A stretch of 40,118 nucleotides of DNA, from IMG/VR virus record IMGVR_UViG_3300017713_000017, positions 1-40,118 of that record. One strand, given 5' to 3'. Under the pieces are notes generated by a model. The model worked only from the letters and a program-made list of their open reading frames with translations. It was not told the DNA's origin and did not search any database. Below are positions 8,867 to 21,302 of the stretch, piece by piece. The stretch comes from a virus. How positions within the stretch are numbered: position 1 is the first letter of the stretch; every line of letters starts with the position of its first letter. The translations under genes were made by a program, and so were the position numbers.

Positions 8867-10636
8867 TTAATATACTCCAGCATGTGAATTTGTCAATGAG
8901 TTTGCTATTTCATCATGCGATTTAACTGGTGTTTGTTGAACCTGTGTGACACTTGAGTTTCTAGAATTATTTTGGTTTTGTTGAATAATAATATCTGATT
9001 TTCTTGTGTCTTTGGCAAACTGAACCTTGCCCTCTTCGGTAGATAAATCATAACCCATTGGATTACCAGATGCTTCAAGATTTGCTGATGCTGAACCACC
9101 AGGTGCAACTTCTAAACCTATATCATCACCTTTAGTAACTTCATTAAATACTCTTCTAAATGCTTCGCCAGGACTTTCACCACCAGGTAATATTGCTTTA
9201 ACTGCGGCTATACCACCTTTTGCCAATCCTTTAAATATTGTACCTATGTTAAATATCTTATCTTTAAGAGCACTACCAAATGCAAACATGTTGGCAAAAA
9301 ACTCTTTTACTTTTGCAACTGCTGTTAAGAGAGCACCTGTAATTGACCAATCATCAGGTATACCATCAAATCCAAATAAACCTGCTACCATGTTTATTGC
9401 AGCCCTTACTCCACTAAACACAATGTCATATAATCCACCAAAAATTTTAACAAAGTTTTCTATACTAAAGTCGCCAGAGAATAATCCTTTGATACCTTCA
9501 AATATATTTTTTATTCCACCAACAATACTATTAAAAATATCCATAACATATTTCTTCATTATGTCTATTAAAGGTGTTAAAAATTCATATATTTTCATGA
9601 ATACATTAATGATTGCACCAAAGACACTATCAGTTTCTTCTAATCCAAAGTACCTTGCAATTGCATTATACAATCCTGTTACTGCCGAGTCAAGTATTTT
9701 ATATATTGCTTGTCCAAGACCTTTAAAGATGTCAATTAATCCACCAATGATGTCACCTTGAAATAATTTTTTAAATCCACCGAAGACTAGTTCAAACTGT
9801 GGTGCTAATGATTTCATAAATTCTGTTAAATTCTCAAACATTTTACTATCTAAGAATGCTTTTAAACCAAAGAAGGCCGCAACTAATCCACCTGTTTTTA
9901 ACATGGCCATCAGTCCACCACCTGCACTTTTCATAGCATCTTTTGTTGCACCTAAAGCTTTTCCACCAAGTCCCATAATACCACTTTTTAATCCAACAAG
10001 ACCTTTACTAATACCCTGTAAAGACATTGTTTGTTTGATGTTTTGCATTCGTACTTGTCTATCAGCACGAGCTTCTAATCTTCTTTCTTGTCTTTCTATG
10101 TTAGTCGCTTTTTCTTGATACTCACGGGTACCTTTAATTTGTTCAGCAGTCATAGTATCACTAACAAGCATTTTTTCTAATACTTGTTTTTGCATTTTTA
10201 ATTCTGCTCTTGTTTGTTCTTCAGCCGCTAGTTCATTTTCACTAATTCCTCTTGATCTCATGATCAAGTCTCTAGTTGCTTGTGTTTGATCTGTTTGAAT
10301 TTTGTTATTGAGTTCTTGTAATCTATTTTGTTGTTCCAACTGAGCAATTGATTGTTTATCACTTGCCAATTGACTATTTAAAGTTTTTAATTGATCTTTC
10401 TCTACACCACTAAGTCTAGATGCAATGACTTCACCACCTTTAGTCTTTTTACCTTTTTTAAGATCACCAACAAACTTATCAATAGCACCTTGCGACTTCT
10501 TTGCTTGATCTGCTAGTTGTTTTGTTTGTTTTGCTTGATTAACGACTTCTTGTTTCTTTTGAGATACAATCTTAGCTTCTTCTTCAGCATTTTTTCTTCT
10601 AATTGTTGTGATTAAGTTTTCTACTGCAGCTGACAT
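8867..10636 (-). CDS. Tail tape-measure-like / baseplate hub protein (589 aa)
   Basis: Residues 1-200 are long charged helices with coiled-coil character (repeated KK, QAKQ and EEQ patterns). Residues 210-270 are Gly/Ala-rich and hydrophobic (GLVGLKSGIMGLGGKALGAT), and 280-480 contain several amphipathic or hydrophobic helices. The C-terminus is polar and Gln/Asn-rich. This profile is that of a tape-measure protein, and the length is close to T4 gp29 (590 aa). A gp26 gene with a frameshift, typical of tape-measure chaperones, lies just upstream. Direct homology to gp29 cannot be shown by eye. A late promoter precedes it. Confidence 0.7.
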   Translation of the reverse strand: MSAAVENLITTIRRKNAEEEAKIVSQKKQEVVNQAKQTKQLADQAKKSQGAIDKFVGDLKKGKKTKGGEVIASRLSGVEKDQLKTLNSQLASDKQSIAQLEQQNRLQELNNKIQTDQTQATRDLIMRSRGISENELAAEEQTRAELKMQKQVLEKMLVSDTMTAEQIKGTREYQEKATNIERQERRLEARADRQVRMQNIKQTMSLQGISKGLVGLKSGIMGLGGKALGATKDAMKSAGGGLMAMLKTGGLVAAFFGLKAFLDSKMFENLTEFMKSLAPQFELVFGGFKKLFQGDIIGGLIDIFKGLGQAIYKILDSAVTGLYNAIARYFGLEETDSVFGAIINVFMKIYEFLTPLIDIMKKYVMDIFNSIVGGIKNIFEGIKGLFSGDFSIENFVKIFGGLYDIVFSGVRAAINMVAGLFGFDGIPDDWSITGALLTAVAKVKEFFANMFAFGSALKDKIFNIGTIFKGLAKGGIAAVKAILPGGESPGEAFRRVFNEVTKGDDIGLEVAPGGSASANLEASGNPMGYDLSTEEGKVQFAKDTRKSDIIIQQNQNNSRNSSVTQVQQTPVKSHDEIANSLTNSHAGVY

Positions 10637-10773
10637 TTGTTTTTACCTCTAAAGTATTTATATCCAATACCTTTGTCTCTACTCTTCCATAATTTTTGCC
10701 AACTCCATACAGAGACTTTACTTGATACAGTACTGATAAAATTCAATGATGTATATACAATTCTATCGAACAT
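10621..10773 (-). CDS. Small hypothetical protein, 50 aa
   Basis: The frame begins MFDRIVYTSLNFISTVSSKV and ends KNKCQLQ. ATG at 10773 overlaps the upstream stop (TAATG), and its end runs 16 bases into the tape-measure-like gene, so coupling to both is likely. The sequence is basic with a Trp-rich centre (SVWSWQKLWKS), perhaps a membrane-surface helix. Function unknown. Confidence 0.55.
   Translation of the reverse strand: MFDRIVYTSLNFISTVSSKVSVWSWQKLWKSRDKGIGYKYFRGKNKCQLQ
10655..10662 (-). promoter_or_regulatory. T4-type late promoter
   Basis: Perfect TATAAATA on the minus strand, 18 bases upstream of the ATG of the tape-measure-like gene (10636). This octamer is the T4 late -10 read by gp55, with the gp33 co-activator that is encoded here at 20621-20860. 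Confidence 0.65.
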
Positions 10774-11117
10774 TACTTTTTCTTATCTGTTTTTTTACTA
10801 TCTGTATATGCATTTGCACCAAAATAAGCTGCAACTAATGCTGATATGGCAACAAAATATGTAGGTGCAATATCACCAATAATCTTTGCCGTACTTTCAA
10901 ATCCTAACATTGAAGTAATTAAAATACCTGCTGGATAACATAACATACCCCACAATGCAAACCATGTCATTGATCTCATTGCGTCTCTACGAGCATCAGC
11001 ATCTTCAAGTTCTTTTCTCTTAAACTCTAGATACATTTCATGCTCTCTATCAGATACTTGACCATCACCATTTGTATCTGCTGGATGGTGATCTGTTTTT
11101 TTTATTTCATCTGTCAT
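10773..11117 (-). CDS. EF-hand small membrane protein (holin candidate)
   Basis: Residues 14-25 (DTNGDGQVSDRE) form a textbook EF-hand calcium loop, with D14, N16, D18, G19, S22 and E25 in the ligand positions. It is followed by a charged helix (YLEFKRKELEDADARR) and two transmembrane segments near residues 48-70 and 80-102, then a Lys-rich tail. At 114 aa the size suits a holin or other membrane protein. The single EF-hand suggests calcium or membrane-surface sensing. It sits between tail-assembly genes, so a virion or lysis-timing role are both possible. Confidence 0.65.
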   Translation of the reverse strand: MTDEIKKTDHHPADTNGDGQVSDREHEMYLEFKRKELEDADARRDAMRSMTWFALWGMLCYPAGILITSMLGFESTAKIIGDIAPTYFVAISALVAAYFGANAYTDSKKTDKKK

Positions 11118-11121
11118 ATCT

Positions 11122-11327
11122 CTACCTTCTATGTCTATTTTTTTCTTCTTGTTCTTTTTGTTTTCTGTTTTCTTCCTTTATATGCTCTGCAAGTAGATTA
11201 ACATAAACTTCCCTCTCCCATGGCCACATTTCTTCTAGTTCAGACAACGAATATTTGTGATGTTGTAGCATCGCAAAGTTTGTTTTAAAATAATTCGTTA
11301 TCGTGTCATGTGAGAGGCCTATGCTAA
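11122..11327 (-). CDS. -1 frame extension of gp26 (tail assembly chaperone-like), reached by frameshift
   Basis: This frame is open from the gp26 slippery site to a TAG at 11122. After the shift it reads SIGLSHDTITNYFKTNFAML and continues with KYSLSELEEMWPWERE, a helical protein-like sequence that begins before any start codon; the first ATG is at 11271 (49 aa). The pattern PWEREVYVNLLAEHIKEE resembles C-terminal chaperone domains of tape-measure genes and may correspond functionally to T4 gp51. The fusion would be about 300 aa. Independent initiation at 11271 is possible but lacks a clear ribosome site. Confidence 0.75.
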
Positions 11328-12023
11328 AAAATTTGCAAGGCCCTCGATTACAACCTCACTCTTTACCTTAGTCTTAGGGTTTTCAACTTCAACCACATGT
11401 CTAAGTCTAGGCATCGTTTCATAAAATTTCATAATCTTTGACAACTGAGCACTATTAAGTGAATCAATAAATTCATTAAGGTCTTCGTTAGTAAAATCTA
11501 TTCTTTTATGAATAGTTTCACCTTCGATTACTTCATCAATACATTTTTTAATCAAATCAAAAAATCCTGTTGAACCTTGTCCTTTATCAAAATCTTTAAA
11601 GTCATCAATTAAAGGATAATTCATAGTAATACTCACATCGTCTGTAATATTTATCTTATTGCTATGATCATCTTTGACTGTCATGTCAAGTTCATCTAAA
11701 TTAATATTGACTATTGCTCGTGTTTTATTGTCATCTGGGCAGGTAACTGAAATTTTAGCAGTTTCCCCAACTGATTTTGCTCTTAGTTTAATAAAGATAT
11801 ATTCAATATCAAACATTGGAAGTTTATTAACATCCAACTTATCAAAAGTACAACTTTTAATAATATTTTTTACTGCTTCAACTATCTGTTTATCTTCCTT
11901 ACTTTCACTAGCCATCATAAGAACCTTTTGTTCTTTGACTAAGAAAGGTCGATATTTAATAATTTCTGCTGTTGACGGCAACTCTAATTCGTATGTAGCT
12001 GTTGCCAGTTTTGGTAGTGCCAT
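11319..12023 (-). CDS. 26: Baseplate hub subunit gp26-like
   Basis: The opening (MALPKLATATYELELPSTAE) followed by RPFLVKEQKVLMMASES is characteristic of the T4 gp26 family. In T4 this protein works in assembly of the central baseplate hub with gp27, gp29, gp28 and gp51. The protein is 234 aa (T4: about 208). It ends ANFLA at a slippery run, and a -1 shift would add about 67 residues. Neighbouring tube-like and tape-measure-like genes agree with a hub/tail module. The ribosome site is AAGGAGCG before ATG. Confidence 0.82.
   Translation of the reverse strand: MALPKLATATYELELPSTAEIIKYRPFLVKEQKVLMMASESKEDKQIVEAVKNIIKSCTFDKLDVNKLPMFDIEYIFIKLRAKSVGETAKISVTCPDDNKTRAIVNINLDELDMTVKDDHSNKINITDDVSITMNYPLIDDFKDFDKGQGSTGFFDLIKKCIDEVIEGETIHKRIDFTNEDLNEFIDSLNSAQLSKIMKFYETMPRLRHVVEVENPKTKVKSEVVIEGLANFLA
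11325..11334 (-). promoter_or_regulatory. Programmed -1 frameshift site in gp26
   Basis: Zero-frame codons GCA AAT TTT TTA GCA TAG contain two overlapping canonical X-XXY-YYZ heptamers: A-AAT-TTT and T-TTT-TTA. They lie one codon before the gp26 stop. A -1 slip reads AGC ATA GGC and enters the open 11122 frame. Confidence 0.78.
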
Positions 12024-12048: not shown

Positions 12049-12774
12049 TTATAGTCTTCTTAACACTGCTGGAACACGACTTCTTAACTGTCGTTCAACA
12101 GTATTAACAAACACATCGCCAATTCTTTCTAGAAGTGGTTTAGGCAATTCTGCCTCATCTGTTAAATTTTTCCAATATCTATATGACCAAGTAACAGGCA
12201 TTAAGTAAATAGAGTTTAGTACACCATAATCTGCTTGTAGTTCTCCAACTGTTGATGGGTAACACTCTACTAACTCTACACCATGTCTTCTTCTATCATT
12301 CTTATCAAGTTGAAATATTTGCATAGTTCCAACGTAATCGTCATAATATCCTACTGAAAAATCTGTTCTATTTGCAGCTATTCTTTGCCAATCATCAAAG
12401 AAATTTCTTTCTCTAAAATCTGATGATACTCTAACACTTGTACTAAGCTCTGCAAAAGTTTGACCTGAAACAACTTTTCTTACAGGACCATAAATGTTTG
12501 TATCTTCTTGCGTTTCTAAAGTCATACCAGGAAATGAAACCTGTGTTGTTTCCATAGAAACTCTTCTTACTAAATCTGTTCCTTTTTGTTGCAAGCTTGC
12601 ACCAAATATATTTGAACTGGCCGCTTGTCCACCAGAACCTCTATAACCACTTGGTGGTGTAATTATTACTTCATACTTTGTAGGTCTAGCATAACCATCT
12701 TGACTTCTAAAACCTGCTAAGATTTCATTTAGTACTCCGTATGCAAACCCATCTAGTAAACTGCTTCTTGCCAT
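12049..12774 (-). CDS. Tail-tube-fold protein (baseplate tube initiator, gp54-like)
   Basis: The central part (FDDWQRIAANRTDFSVGYYD, then DYVGTMQIFQLD) and ELVECYPSTVG with a C-terminal TWSYRYW have the pattern of the T4 gp19/gp54 tube family: a long insertion-bearing beta barrel with an ECYP-type strand. At 241 aa it is longer than the tube protein gp19 (163) and shorter than gp54 (320), so tube initiator is the better guess; gp48 is already accounted for at 14524. It acts where the tube starts to polymerise on the baseplate. The gene precedes gp26 with a 25-base gap. Confidence 0.7.
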   Translation of the reverse strand: MARSSLLDGFAYGVLNEILAGFRSQDGYARPTKYEVIITPPSGYRGSGGQAASSNIFGASLQQKGTDLVRRVSMETTQVSFPGMTLETQEDTNIYGPVRKVVSGQTFAELSTSVRVSSDFRERNFFDDWQRIAANRTDFSVGYYDDYVGTMQIFQLDKNDRRRHGVELVECYPSTVGELQADYGVLNSIYLMPVTWSYRYWKNLTDEAELPKPLLERIGDVFVNTVERQLRSRVPAVLRRL

Positions 12775-14523: not shown

Positions 14524-15729
14524 ATGAGCATAATAAAAGGTTTAAAAACACAAGCAGTTAGTACAGCAGCCTCTTACGGTATCAGAAAAGTCAGTGGTAT
14601 CTTGCGTAAACAGTTAGGTTTGCAAGATGTTAATCGACAAGGTGGACCTGTATCTAAATCTAGTGCAGAATTCAATAAACCAACAAATATCTTCTCTTTC
14701 CCTCTAGATGTCACTGGTGGCCCAGGTATCGGTAATCAAGGACACTATGTTATGTTCTATATCAATGAACAACAAGACGCAGAATTAAGATTTGGCGAAA
14801 GAAAAGACGGTGAGACTTCAGTTATTGAAAATGCATCACAAGCCAATGTTCCACAATACATTACAAGAATGGTAGGTGATACTGCTGTAAGAGAAGAGAA
14901 TACAAATGGGTATGAAAATCAACAACATTTAGACATGGTTGACCCTGGGTTTAAAAAAGCATTAAGTAAAAGAAAAACTAAACCAAAACCTTATAAGGCA
15001 GGTGGTTCAACTGCATATCTAAAAAGAGCACCAACTGTAAGATTAGATACTGCGATTGCATTATACATGCCACCACAAGCAACTTATATCAATCAATTTA
15101 ATTATACTGATACTGAAATTGGTTCTGGTGCAAGAGCGGCAACAGATGCCTACGGACAAATAATGAGTGGTGCTGGGACTGCCGAAGTTATTGGTTCAAC
15201 AATGAAAAATTTAGGAACAGGTCTAAGTGAGGGTTTAATGAAAACTGCAACTGCAGCTGTTGGTGCAATACCTGGTTTACAAGGAACGAGAGAAGCATAC
15301 GAAGCGGCACAAGGTGCCATTGTTGCTGATAGAATGGAATTAGCATTCAAAGGTTTAAACAAAAGAAAGTTCCAATTTCAATTTAAATTTTTACCTAAAA
15401 ACAAAAGAGAGTCAGACGAAGTAAGAAATATTATATTTGCCTTTAGAGCAAATGCAGCACCAGAGTTTGTTGGTGGTGACAGAGCAGGTAGAAAGATGAG
15501 AGTTCCAAATACATTTGATATACAATATATGTATGATGGTAATGAAAACCAATACTTACAAAAAATATCAACATGTGTATTGGAAAATATTACAGTCACA
15601 TATGGTGGCGATAGATTTAGAACATTTACACCTAACGAAGAAGGTGCTCCACCTGTTGAAACTCAATGTACACTAGAGTTCTCAGAAATGGAATTAATTA
15701 CAAAAGAAAGAATTTACGAGGGTTACTAG
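14524..15729 (+). CDS. 48: Baseplate tail-tube cap gp48
   Basis: The C-terminal half contains KFQFQFKFLPKNKRESDEVR, IIFAFRANAAPEF, FDIQYMYDG and ENITVTYGGD, a pattern typical of T4-like gp48, which caps the baseplate and starts tube polymerisation with gp54. At 401 aa it is slightly longer than T4 gp48 (364). An Ala/Gly-rich helical insertion lies about 200-265. First gene of the plus-strand late operon, 0 bp from gp53. Confidence 0.85.
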   Translation: MSIIKGLKTQAVSTAASYGIRKVSGILRKQLGLQDVNRQGGPVSKSSAEFNKPTNIFSFPLDVTGGPGIGNQGHYVMFYINEQQDAELRFGERKDGETSVIENASQANVPQYITRMVGDTAVREENTNGYENQQHLDMVDPGFKKALSKRKTKPKPYKAGGSTAYLKRAPTVRLDTAIALYMPPQATYINQFNYTDTEIGSGARAATDAYGQIMSGAGTAEVIGSTMKNLGTGLSEGLMKTATAAVGAIPGLQGTREAYEAAQGAIVADRMELAFKGLNKRKFQFQFKFLPKNKRESDEVRNIIFAFRANAAPEFVGGDRAGRKMRVPNTFDIQYMYDGNENQYLQKISTCVLENITVTYGGDRFRTFTPNEEGAPPVETQCTLEFSEMELITKERIYEGY

Positions 15730-16266
15730 ATGTCATTTTTTCAAAACTTTCCTGTTATCCCATACGACTCCGAAGGTAATGGTGAATTAAAAGATGTAAC
15801 TAATATTTTAAGAAGAGTTGTGGTAAGAACAAAGGTAGAAGATAATACAGCTGTTTTTGATACTTACGATGTTAAAGAAGGTGAAACACCAGAAATGATA
15901 GCACACAAATTATATGGTGACATAAATCTACATTGGGTTATTTTACTATTTAATAAAGTAAAAGACAGATACCATGATTGGCCAATGACACAACAACAAT
16001 TTGATTTATACATGAAAGATAAGTATGGTATTGAAAATATTAGTGCAGTTCATCATTACGAAATTACTCAAGAGTCTGGTCATGGCAATATTAAAATAGA
16101 CGTTGGTACATCAAATACTTTATATCCAAGTGCAACTGCTATTACTAATTATGATTTTGAAGAAAAATTACAAAACGAAAGAAGAAGAATCAAACTATTA
16201 GACCCTAGATATGTAGATCAGTTTGTTGCAGAATTTAAAGAAAAAATATCAGAAACGGTGATTTAA
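15730..16266 (+). CDS. 53: Baseplate wedge gp53
   Basis: The N-terminal YDSEGNGELKDVTNILRRV and the LysM-like segment YDVKEGETPEMIAHKLYGD, followed by LHWVILLFNK, are hallmarks of T4 gp53. gp53 joins wedges into the six-fold baseplate through its LysM-like domain. Length 178 aa (T4: 196). It directly follows gp48 and is directly followed by the hub gene, so all are cotranslated. In T4 gp53 is next to gp4, and here gp4 is just across the divergent promoter. Confidence 0.9.
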   Translation: MSFFQNFPVIPYDSEGNGELKDVTNILRRVVVRTKVEDNTAVFDTYDVKEGETPEMIAHKLYGDINLHWVILLFNKVKDRYHDWPMTQQQFDLYMKDKYGIENISAVHHYEITQESGHGNIKIDVGTSNTLYPSATAITNYDFEEKLQNERRRIKLLDPRYVDQFVAEFKEKISETVI

Positions 16267-17679
16267 ATGAGTACGGTACAATATGCAGGTCAATTTGTAA
16301 TTGAGAAATGTGAATTAGTCACATCAGCAGGATTAGTCATTAATCTTAGTAGTTCTATTTTAGAAATCAATTTATTCGAAGACATTTATTCAAATGCATT
16401 AAAAGGTTCTATCCTTTGTTACGATACAAATAGTTTAATAACTAAAACACAAATTTTAGGACAAGATTATCTTAGATTAAAAATAACAACGCCAGGGTTT
16501 GAAAGCAATGATGTTGAGAAATGTTTTGATTTTACAGAAAATGTATTCTCTGTGTATAAAATTGGTGCAAGAAATGATTCATCGTTAAATGCTGAAGTTT
16601 TTGAATTATCGTTTATCTCACCAGAAGCATTGACTAATCTAAGAAAAAGAGTATCTAAAAGTCTAACTGGTAGTCCAAGTGAAATATTTGAAACACTTAT
16701 GAAAAGTGACTTTTCTATTAATACTTCTAAAAAACTTTATATTGAAGAAGCATCTGGTGTAAGAAAATATGTTGTTCCTAATATGCACCCATTTCAATTT
16801 ATACAGAGCATAGTAGAGGAGTCTGTATCTTCTAATTCACTAAGTCCTTTTTATGTTTTCTTTGAAAATACAAGAGGTTATCATTTTAGAACATTACAAA
16901 GTTTATATAATCAAGATACTAAAGGTGATTTTAATCTAGGTGACCCAGGCGAATTAGATGATGTTGGGTCTAAAGTAAAAGACATTGAAAAAGAATATCG
17001 TACTGTTCTTCAAGATGATTCAAATAACAATAGTGATATGTTAAAAAATATTGTTAGTGGTCTATTAGCAAACAAGTTAAGAACCCTTGATATTTTTAAT
17101 AAAAAGATAGAAACAAAAGAACATAATTATTTTGATGATTATAAAAAGTTTCCTAGAATTGAAAATTCTGATAAAGACAAACCAATATACAATGATGATG
17201 CTATTGAAGAAGATGGTTCAAGAATTTCAGACTACCCAGATACAAATATTCATCTGATACCATATCAAGTAGATGAAACAACAGGTGGTGATCCACTACA
17301 TTATAATAAAGAGACTGAAAGTTATAGTTATACAACTTCAACAGAAAAAGATTCTGTTCAATATCTAAAAGGTAAAATGGTTGAATTAGCAACAACACTT
17401 AGTCGTAATATGAAAGTAAACGGACACACAGCTCTTGCATGTGGTGATACAATTAATTTTACTAAACCAGATTTAACTGCCAAAGAAAATGGTTTTCTTG
17501 ATGAATTAGAATCAGGTAAGTATTTAATTACAGCTGCAAGACACATCTTTAGTACAATTAATAATAAACATGAAATGGTTATAACATGTAATAAAGATTC
17601 ACATCCTATTTCTAAAAAGAAAGATGGTTCTATCGTTAGAAGTAAATCAGTTCCAAAAGGTAAATTAATAGTAGAATGA
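16267..17679 (+). CDS. 27: Baseplate hub protein, gp27-like
   Basis: 470 aa protein starting MSTVQYAGQFVIEKCELVTS, with beta-rich domains and an HPFQFIQSIVEESVSSN block typical of phage hub proteins of the gp27/gpD type. GHTALACGDTINFT and GKYLITAARHIFS near the C-terminus form a hub-type small beta domain. The insertion 230-340 is polar and acidic. It forms the trimeric centre of the baseplate, through which DNA exits. No lysozyme domain (gp5) is attached. The next gene overlaps its stop by 4 bp. Confidence 0.78.
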   Translation: MSTVQYAGQFVIEKCELVTSAGLVINLSSSILEINLFEDIYSNALKGSILCYDTNSLITKTQILGQDYLRLKITTPGFESNDVEKCFDFTENVFSVYKIGARNDSSLNAEVFELSFISPEALTNLRKRVSKSLTGSPSEIFETLMKSDFSINTSKKLYIEEASGVRKYVVPNMHPFQFIQSIVEESVSSNSLSPFYVFFENTRGYHFRTLQSLYNQDTKGDFNLGDPGELDDVGSKVKDIEKEYRTVLQDDSNNNSDMLKNIVSGLLANKLRTLDIFNKKIETKEHNYFDDYKKFPRIENSDKDKPIYNDDAIEEDGSRISDYPDTNIHLIPYQVDETTGGDPLHYNKETESYSYTTSTEKDSVQYLKGKMVELATTLSRNMKVNGHTALACGDTINFTKPDLTAKENGFLDELESGKYLITAARHIFSTINNKHEMVITCNKDSHPISKKKDGSIVRSKSVPKGKLIVE

Positions 17680-20621: not shown

Positions 20622-20860
20622 TAATCGATAGGTAGTTTTCCTTTGCCTTCTACATCGCTTGAGATTAATCTTAATTCTCTTGCGTTTGCTTCTATTTTTG
20701 ATTTTAATGCCTTAGTAATTAACTTTGCTACTGTTTCTATTTCTATTTCATTTGATTCACAATAATGTGTTACTGCGTCCAAGTGATTAATTCCCTTTTC
20801 TACAGCCATTTGTTCTATCTGTAGTGAAAATGTTTTTGGTGTAATTTTAAATAAACTCAT
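20621..20860 (-). CDS. 33: Late transcription co-activator gp33
   Basis: 79 aa, containing NHLDAVTHYCESNEIEIETV and KALKSKIEANARELRLI. This is the T4 gp33 core pattern (DAVxxYCExNxIExET...K.K.EARxL). gp33 binds the RNA polymerase flap and links the sliding clamp to late promoters with gp55. The C-terminus carries a hydrophobic end (GKLPID) comparable to the clamp-binding tail. Its presence agrees with the TATAAATA late promoters in the window. It starts just after the tmRNA coding piece. Confidence 0.88.
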   Translation of the reverse strand: MSLFKITPKTFSLQIEQMAVEKGINHLDAVTHYCESNEIEIETVAKLITKALKSKIEANARELRLISSDVEGKGKLPID

Positions 20861-20932
20861 TAATAATCCTATAAAGTGGCAAGTTTCTGTTGCCAGGTAC
20901 TTGCCGACCCCGACTGTTAATTACGCTAGCAA

Positions 20933-20962
20933 TTAGGCAGCCATTGCAAAATTATTGTTTGC
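20933..20962 (-). other. tmRNA proteolysis tag frame
   Basis: Ten codons, GCA AAC AAT AAT TTT GCA ATG GCT GCC TAA, encode ANNNFAMAA. Start A-N-(D/N)-N-F and the hydrophobic-Ala-Ala end match bacterial SsrA tags recognised by ClpXP. With the alanine from charged tmRNA, the peptide added is ten residues. Confidence 0.92.
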
Positions 20963-21035
20963 ACTTATGGTTGTGAATACTCGGGTAAGATACTCGTCAG
21001 CAGTCGAAACCTATTTCACCCCCATCCTAACCACA

Positions 21036-21167
21036 CTACTTACAAAGGTCTTCATACTTAGTGGTATGTACTCTATGTTGAGATAAATCTCTACCAAGAT
21101 AACCTGGTATTTGTTTTTCTTTTTTTGTCAAGAAATTATTGAATACATTTTTAAACCATTTTAGCAT
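21036..21167 (-). CDS. 43 aa protein gene nested between the tmRNA halves
   Basis: The ATG at 21167 has a perfect-looking ribosome site (AAGGAGTCTTAA). The product starts MLKWFKNVFNNFLTKKEKQI and ends with HTTKYEDLCK, amphipathic basic helix first, then IPGYLGRDLSQHRV. The frame starts 29 bases after the acceptor CCA and stops 12 bases before the 5' half, so it exactly fills the intervening segment that normally is removed. If translated, mRNA and tmRNA precursor are one transcript. No family recognised. Confidence 0.65.
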   Translation of the reverse strand: MLKWFKNVFNNFLTKKEKQIPGYLGRDLSQHRVHTTKYEDLCK

Positions 21168-21264
21168 TTAAGACTCCTTAATGTGTTTAGGATGATGGTG
21201 GAGGTGGAGGGTATCGCACCCTCGTCCTAACTAATTTTTTACAAACCGTCATCGAATTCAACTA

Positions 21265-21302
21265 TATTTATAACATAGTTCGAAAGCAATGTCAAGGGTT
21301 AA
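21265..21302 (-). promoter_or_regulatory. tmRNA promoter with combined early and late signals
   Basis: Minus strand: TTAACCC, TTGACA (21295-21290), 17 bp, TATAAA (21272-21267). The -10 is part of TATAAATA (21272-21265), the exact T4 late octamer. Predicted +1 near 21260-21258, about 20-30 bases before the acceptor domain. The TTAACCC box overlaps the rubrerythrin stop codon. Confidence 0.85.

Follow-up and report, generated by a model that had tools for sequence, protein, structure and literature searches.

A conserved slippery heptamer points to -1 frameshifting between gp26 and a gp51-type domain in the tail chaperone locus of a marine T4-like virus

How is a gp51-type reading frame expressed when it overlaps the 3' end of a gp26-like gene in the -1 frame: as a small protein of its own, or as an extension of gp26 reached by frameshifting? 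The locus lies on a 40-kb fragment of an uncultured marine virus, a metagenomic contig, and the window refers to the whole stretch of 40,118 nucleotides that was analysed. An earlier note on this DNA had suggested that a -1 frameshift fuses gp26 with a chaperone-like C-terminal domain, a proposal that the comparative evidence below strongly supports. The features concerned are listed here in order of transcription, with TAC denoting a tail assembly chaperone.

12049 to 12774, minus strand: tail-tube-like gene directly upstream of gp26 (phrog_45 tail tube, E=8.6e-35)
11319 to 12023, minus strand: gp26-like protein, putative short form (TAC-N), 234 aa, ATG at 12023, stop TAG 11321-11319
11341 to 11345, minus strand: Shine-Dalgarno-like GAGGG, candidate stimulator, starting 14 nt upstream of the heptamer
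11328 to 11334, minus strand: overlapping heptamer A_AAT_TTT, two codons before the gp26 stop
11325 to 11331, minus strand: slippery heptamer T_TTT_TTA in the gp26 frame, the -1 slip site proposed from conservation in relatives
11125 to 11325, minus strand: putative C-terminal domain (TAC-C) in the -1 frame, 67 aa, SIGLSHD...NRHRR, stop TAG 11124-11122
10773 to 11117, minus strand: 114-aa ORF between the chaperone and tape-measure genes (from the ORF list)
8867 to 10636, minus strand: tape-measure-like gene, 589 aa (phrog_4200 tail length tape measure protein, E=2.9e-6)

The window gp26 matches PF12322 T4_baseplate (E=1.3e-64) and phrog_150 (E=1.3e-68), and its start is preceded by its own Shine-Dalgarno sequence, AAGGAG. 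It sits between the tail-tube and tape-measure genes (phrog_45 upstream, phrog_4200 downstream), and the order tail tube, 26/51, tape measure is kept in relatives, as in lambda-type operons. The downstream tape-measure-like gene claimed in the earlier note is present at 8867-10636, after the single 114-aa ORF, and many relatives have an ORF of similar size at the same place. The window's version of that ORF shows an EF-hand-like DTNGDGQVSDREHE motif and membrane-like segments. An AlphaFold2 model of gp26 is confident (pLDDT 89.5). No solved TAC (e.g. HK97 gp13) similar to gp26 was among its PDB matches by profile or by model fold, PDB fold searches gave no match, and among good matches in a viral-model library those with names were mostly baseplate hub proteins of the gp26/gp51 type. 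As the gp26 model has no solved structural relative, we infer a chaperone function from orthology and position. Fold thus plays no part in the TAC assignment, which draws on position, architecture, orthology and literature; gp26, which would work like a TAC of the lambda gpG/gpGT type, is a candidate member of that protein family by role only.

We propose that gp26 acts as the tail assembly chaperone TAC-N and that part of the ribosomes translating it would shift back one base at T_TTT_TTA (11331-11325). The slipped ribosomes would bypass the TAG at 11321 and stop in the -1 frame at 11124-11122, yielding a TAC-NC of 300 aa with the predicted junction ...EGLANFL-SIGLSHD.... By analogy with lambda G/GT, TAC-N would cover the protein made from the downstream tape-measure gene, and the C-domain would bring in the tube protein. 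Xu, Hendrix and Duda are said to have described lambda G/GT and a conserved frameshift in siphophage tail genes in 2004. As in lambda, the short and long chaperones proposed here would share a start, with a -1 slip at the 3' end of the short form and the same location between tail tube and tape-measure genes. In contrast, the lambda heptamer differs from T_TTT_TTN, the comparison reveals no detectable protein sequence relation between the two chaperones, and the window virus, unlike lambda, is a T4-type myovirus. That such a lambda G/GT-like -1 frameshift yields both TAC-N (234 aa) and TAC-NC (300 aa) is, in our judgment, very likely on the sequence evidence; from that same evidence we infer the slippage itself, its efficiency and the effect of the Shine-Dalgarno-like element.

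Relatives were retrieved from IMG/VR with two peptide patterns from the N-terminal half of gp26, and because the patterns sit in that half, the resulting 80 loci were not picked for the slip site. Together with 7 cultured phages and the window they form a main set of 88 loci, from which 63 non-redundant sequences were taken (median protein identity 48%). Ten further, more distant phages comprised Synechococcus S-WAM1, S-E7, MC09 and Syn2, Vibrio KVP40 and D484, Rhizobium I1_9 and P10VF, Agrobacterium OLIVR6 and Pseudomonas pf16. Inspection of these sets reveals that slip site, frame and coding are all conserved. T_TTT_TTN lies in the gp26 frame within the overlap in 88/88 main-set loci, the frame of the C-domain relative to gp26 is -1 in every one of the 88, and the heptamer with a -1-frame C-domain recurs in 10/10 of the distant phages, so that the heptamer passes the check for conservation across related phages proposed in the earlier note. 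As a control, comparable Phe-Phe/Leu(TTR) codon pairs elsewhere in gp26 take the T_TTT_TTN form in only 12 of 152 cases (8%). Codon -2 is TTT in 63/63 non-redundant sequences, and codon -3, which is AAT, GAT, AGT, TCT or GCT, ends in T in all 63 while the encoded residue may be N, D, S or A. A third base fixed as T under a varying residue indicates that selection acts on nucleotides. No p-value is given for the conservation of the slip site because the sequences share ancestry and cannot be counted as independent.

The 3' end of the window gp26 reads GAG GGC CTT GCA AAT TTT TTA GCA TAG. Here T_TTT_TTA (11331-11325) fits X_XXY_YYZ when read in the zero frame, lies within the stretch that both frames share, and is followed by one sense codon, GCA, before the gp26 stop. 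Two overlapping heptamers had been put forward as the slip site, both said to end one codon before that stop. The description holds for T_TTT_TTA, whereas A_AAT_TTT ends two codons before the stop and occurs in just 5 of the 88 main-set loci; slippage at the latter was rejected on that count. T_TTT_TTA alone is the conserved site, and judging from the sequences the A_AAT_TTT overlap is probably incidental. In eight loci (L002, L020, L024, L043, L075, L085, L086 and L087) the gp26 zero frame continues 24 nt past the slip site to its stop, compared with the usual distance of 0 or 3 nt, and the short form of those loci thereby has a different tail.

The same sequences bear on whether one true fused gene has been split by an indel in the homopolymer that arose in sequencing or assembly. 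The frame change does adjoin a homopolymer, and the window does come from a metagenomic contig. However, an identical arrangement in 98 records, isolates and metagenomes alike, already refutes an artefact, to which we attach a vanishingly small probability. Nor was a homologue lacking the slippery run and carrying an in-frame start for the downstream frame, named beforehand as the observation that would count against frameshifting, found in these 98 sequences of this gene arrangement; T4 itself stands outside them, having a different gene arrangement altogether.

To return to the downstream frame, the -1 frame of the window contains no stop from 11355 to the TAG at 11124-11122. Taken by itself, this frame hits phrog_634 (baseplate hub assembly catalyst, gp51; E=4.9e-29). 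A second match is to positions 227-282 of phrog_150, at the end of the gp26 family profile (E=1.4e-7), which implies that some family members hold both parts in one protein. An AlphaFold2 model of the C-domain has three helices (pLDDT 80.8); PDB profile matches to HIV gp41 helices (E about 0.001) were dismissed as a chance helix match. Across codons 1-17 after the slip, the stretch preceding the commonest ATG, pN/pS is 0.31 in the -1 frame as opposed to 1.38 and 1.78 in the other two (n=63). Stops within these codons occur in 0/63 sequences in the -1 frame, in 63/63 and 60/63 in the other frames and in 70% of shuffles. By these sequence measures the -1 frame encodes protein right from the slip site, ahead of any start codon, and under protein-level selection, confirming the earlier reading of it as open and protein-like upstream of any start.

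This coding stretch weighs directly on the alternative that gp51 is a separate small protein, initiated at an internal AUG (11271 in the window) once gp26 terminates. Existing annotation is in line with such a protein: among 17 public records inspected, gp51 is a separate short CDS in 14, absent in 3 and given as a join in 0. An ATG is also present at codon 18 or 19 of the -1 frame in 57/63 non-redundant sequences. However, a Shine-Dalgarno sequence precedes just 2 of these 57 ATGs, as compared with 46 of 63 gp26 starts. In the window the first -1-frame start codon after the slip is ATG 11271-11269, 18 codons on, and the sequence ahead of it, ATTTTAAAACAAACTTTGCG, contains no Shine-Dalgarno. 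No start codon in the -1 frame is common to all 63 sequences, and 31/63 have none at all in their first 15 codons. Strong protein-level selection extends upstream as far as the slip site, and in the C-domain model the ATG falls within the first helix (residues 9-23), which a start at 11271 would cut. Internal initiation would also leave the invariant T_TTT_TTN unexplained. It was rejected on Shine-Dalgarno, start conservation and upstream coding, and we regard it as highly improbable. With frameshifting, the supposedly missing or separate gp51 of the window and of the 17 public records would become the C-terminal half of one frameshifted protein.

Elements flanking the heptamer were analyzed as candidate stimulators of slippage. 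The internal Shine-Dalgarno-like GAGGG, ~14 nt upstream, would probably boost slippage through pairing with 16S rRNA. GAGG is found at -14 relative to the heptamer in 52 of 88 main-set loci, window included, and the Glu codon at that position is GAG rather than GAA at 37:8, versus 440:1040 elsewhere in gp26 (p=1e-12, kinship ignored). A Shine-Dalgarno-like motif upstream of the heptamer occurs in 53/63 sequences versus 11% of control windows. The window thus carries an upstream Shine-Dalgarno-like element with a putative stimulatory effect. Downstream of the heptamer (+6 to +76), the RNA exceeds shuffled sequence in stability, with a mean z of -2.27 versus about -0.44 in two control regions. 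In the closest clade (e.g. L011, L013, L014 and L017) an 8-bp hairpin begins five bases after the heptamer, with both sides altered in 12 cells (a level reached by 1/500 shuffles) and pairing of 84%, which falls to 31-41% in slid structures. In the window three of these eight pairs are disrupted, and no downstream hairpin is predicted there (0 kcal/mol over 50 nt). RNAalifold on 13 closest-clade sequences retains just four of the pairs, so the hairpin belongs to most of the clade and not to the window, whose sequence has lost it. A strong fold that takes in the slip site (GAGGGCC/GGCCTC, -16.4 kcal/mol) was discarded as a stimulator, as a ribosome at the slip site would melt it.

These elements also speak to the possibility that the long form arises from transcriptional slippage, with RNA polymerase rather than the ribosome gaining or losing bases on the T run. 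The conserved element is indeed a run of at least six T. However, in most sequences it consists of just six T and then a C, A or G, which is short for polymerase slippage, and the conserved frame matches X_XXY_YYZ exactly. The Shine-Dalgarno-like element, along with the covarying hairpin of relatives, is moreover a typical ribosomal stimulator. We consider polymerase slippage still less probable than internal initiation. If frameshifting is ancestral to T4-like phages, a near-invariant cassette of GAGG, then T_TTT_TTN, then often a hairpin would extend across Kyanoviridae, Schizotequatrovirus, Pootjesviridae and others. What is gained here is a testable slip-site rule, T_TTT_TTN with GAGG upstream, for a principle that is itself established.

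T4 genes 26 and 51 belong to the same protein families as the window gp26 and C-domain. Unlike the window, T4 carries them as two separate, divergent genes without a frameshift, gene 26 encoding 208 aa on the minus strand and its neighbour gene 51 encoding 249 aa on the plus strand. T4 gp26 aligns to the N part only, while gp51 aligns to both N and C (phrog_150 positions 13-280, E=2.6e-84; hhalign E=2.8e-8), which indicates that T4 encodes the short and long forms as separate genes. By sequence, gp51 of T4 represents a complete TAC-NC, the fusion occurring naturally in one frame, and not merely the C-domain. The gp51 C-domain accordingly appears as an extension of the gp26 protein in the window as well, given the phrog_634 match and a T4 gp51 that covers N and C. 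The earlier equation of the two T4 proteins with the two parts seen here needs amending: the genes are separate as stated, but gp51 corresponds to the whole long form. We lean towards frameshifting as the ancestral state of the T4-like tape-measure chaperone, with the close group of T4 having secondarily replaced it by a duplicate, gene 51, that is expressed on its own.

Frameshifting in several T4-like groups, with separate genes in that of T4, was reportedly described by Vladimirov, Gautam and Davidson in 2022 (Virology 566:9-15). As far as two later papers relay that work, poly-T slippery sequences occur in the TAC-N genes of T4-like phages (PMC12846349, citing Vladimirov et al. 2022), and there are T4-like phages that instead have a short gene plus a fused gene (PMC10885494, citing the same study). 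To the extent conveyed there, the frameshifted T4-like tail chaperone is already described, and the suggestion of a T4-like phage using a lambda-type scheme, itself supported, is not new. The chaperones so described also belong to the gp26/gp51 family, with a poly-T -1 frameshift at the 3' end of TAC-N and a tape-measure gene downstream, and at this level of description no fundamental difference from the window was found. The window is a marine member minus the hairpin of its close relatives, and its sequence almost certainly makes it a well-supported further marine example. According to PMC12846349, the TAC of Vandenendeviridae and Andersonviridae uses a -1 frameshift at a GTTTTT motif, and its C part is misannotated as a separate ORF. 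These are other phage families, likened by description to the window in their -1 slip and misannotated C part.

Elsewhere in the window, 14524-17679 on the plus strand, opposite to the chaperone operon, holds T4-type genes for a baseplate tail-tube cap, wedge and tail protein. Two-piece tmRNAs are known from marine myophages such as Melnitz (PMC9004378). The window has a complete permuted (two-piece) tmRNA of the alphaproteobacteria type at 20842-21299 on the minus strand, with the tag ANNNFAMAA and matches to Rfam RF01849 (86 bits) and RF04321.
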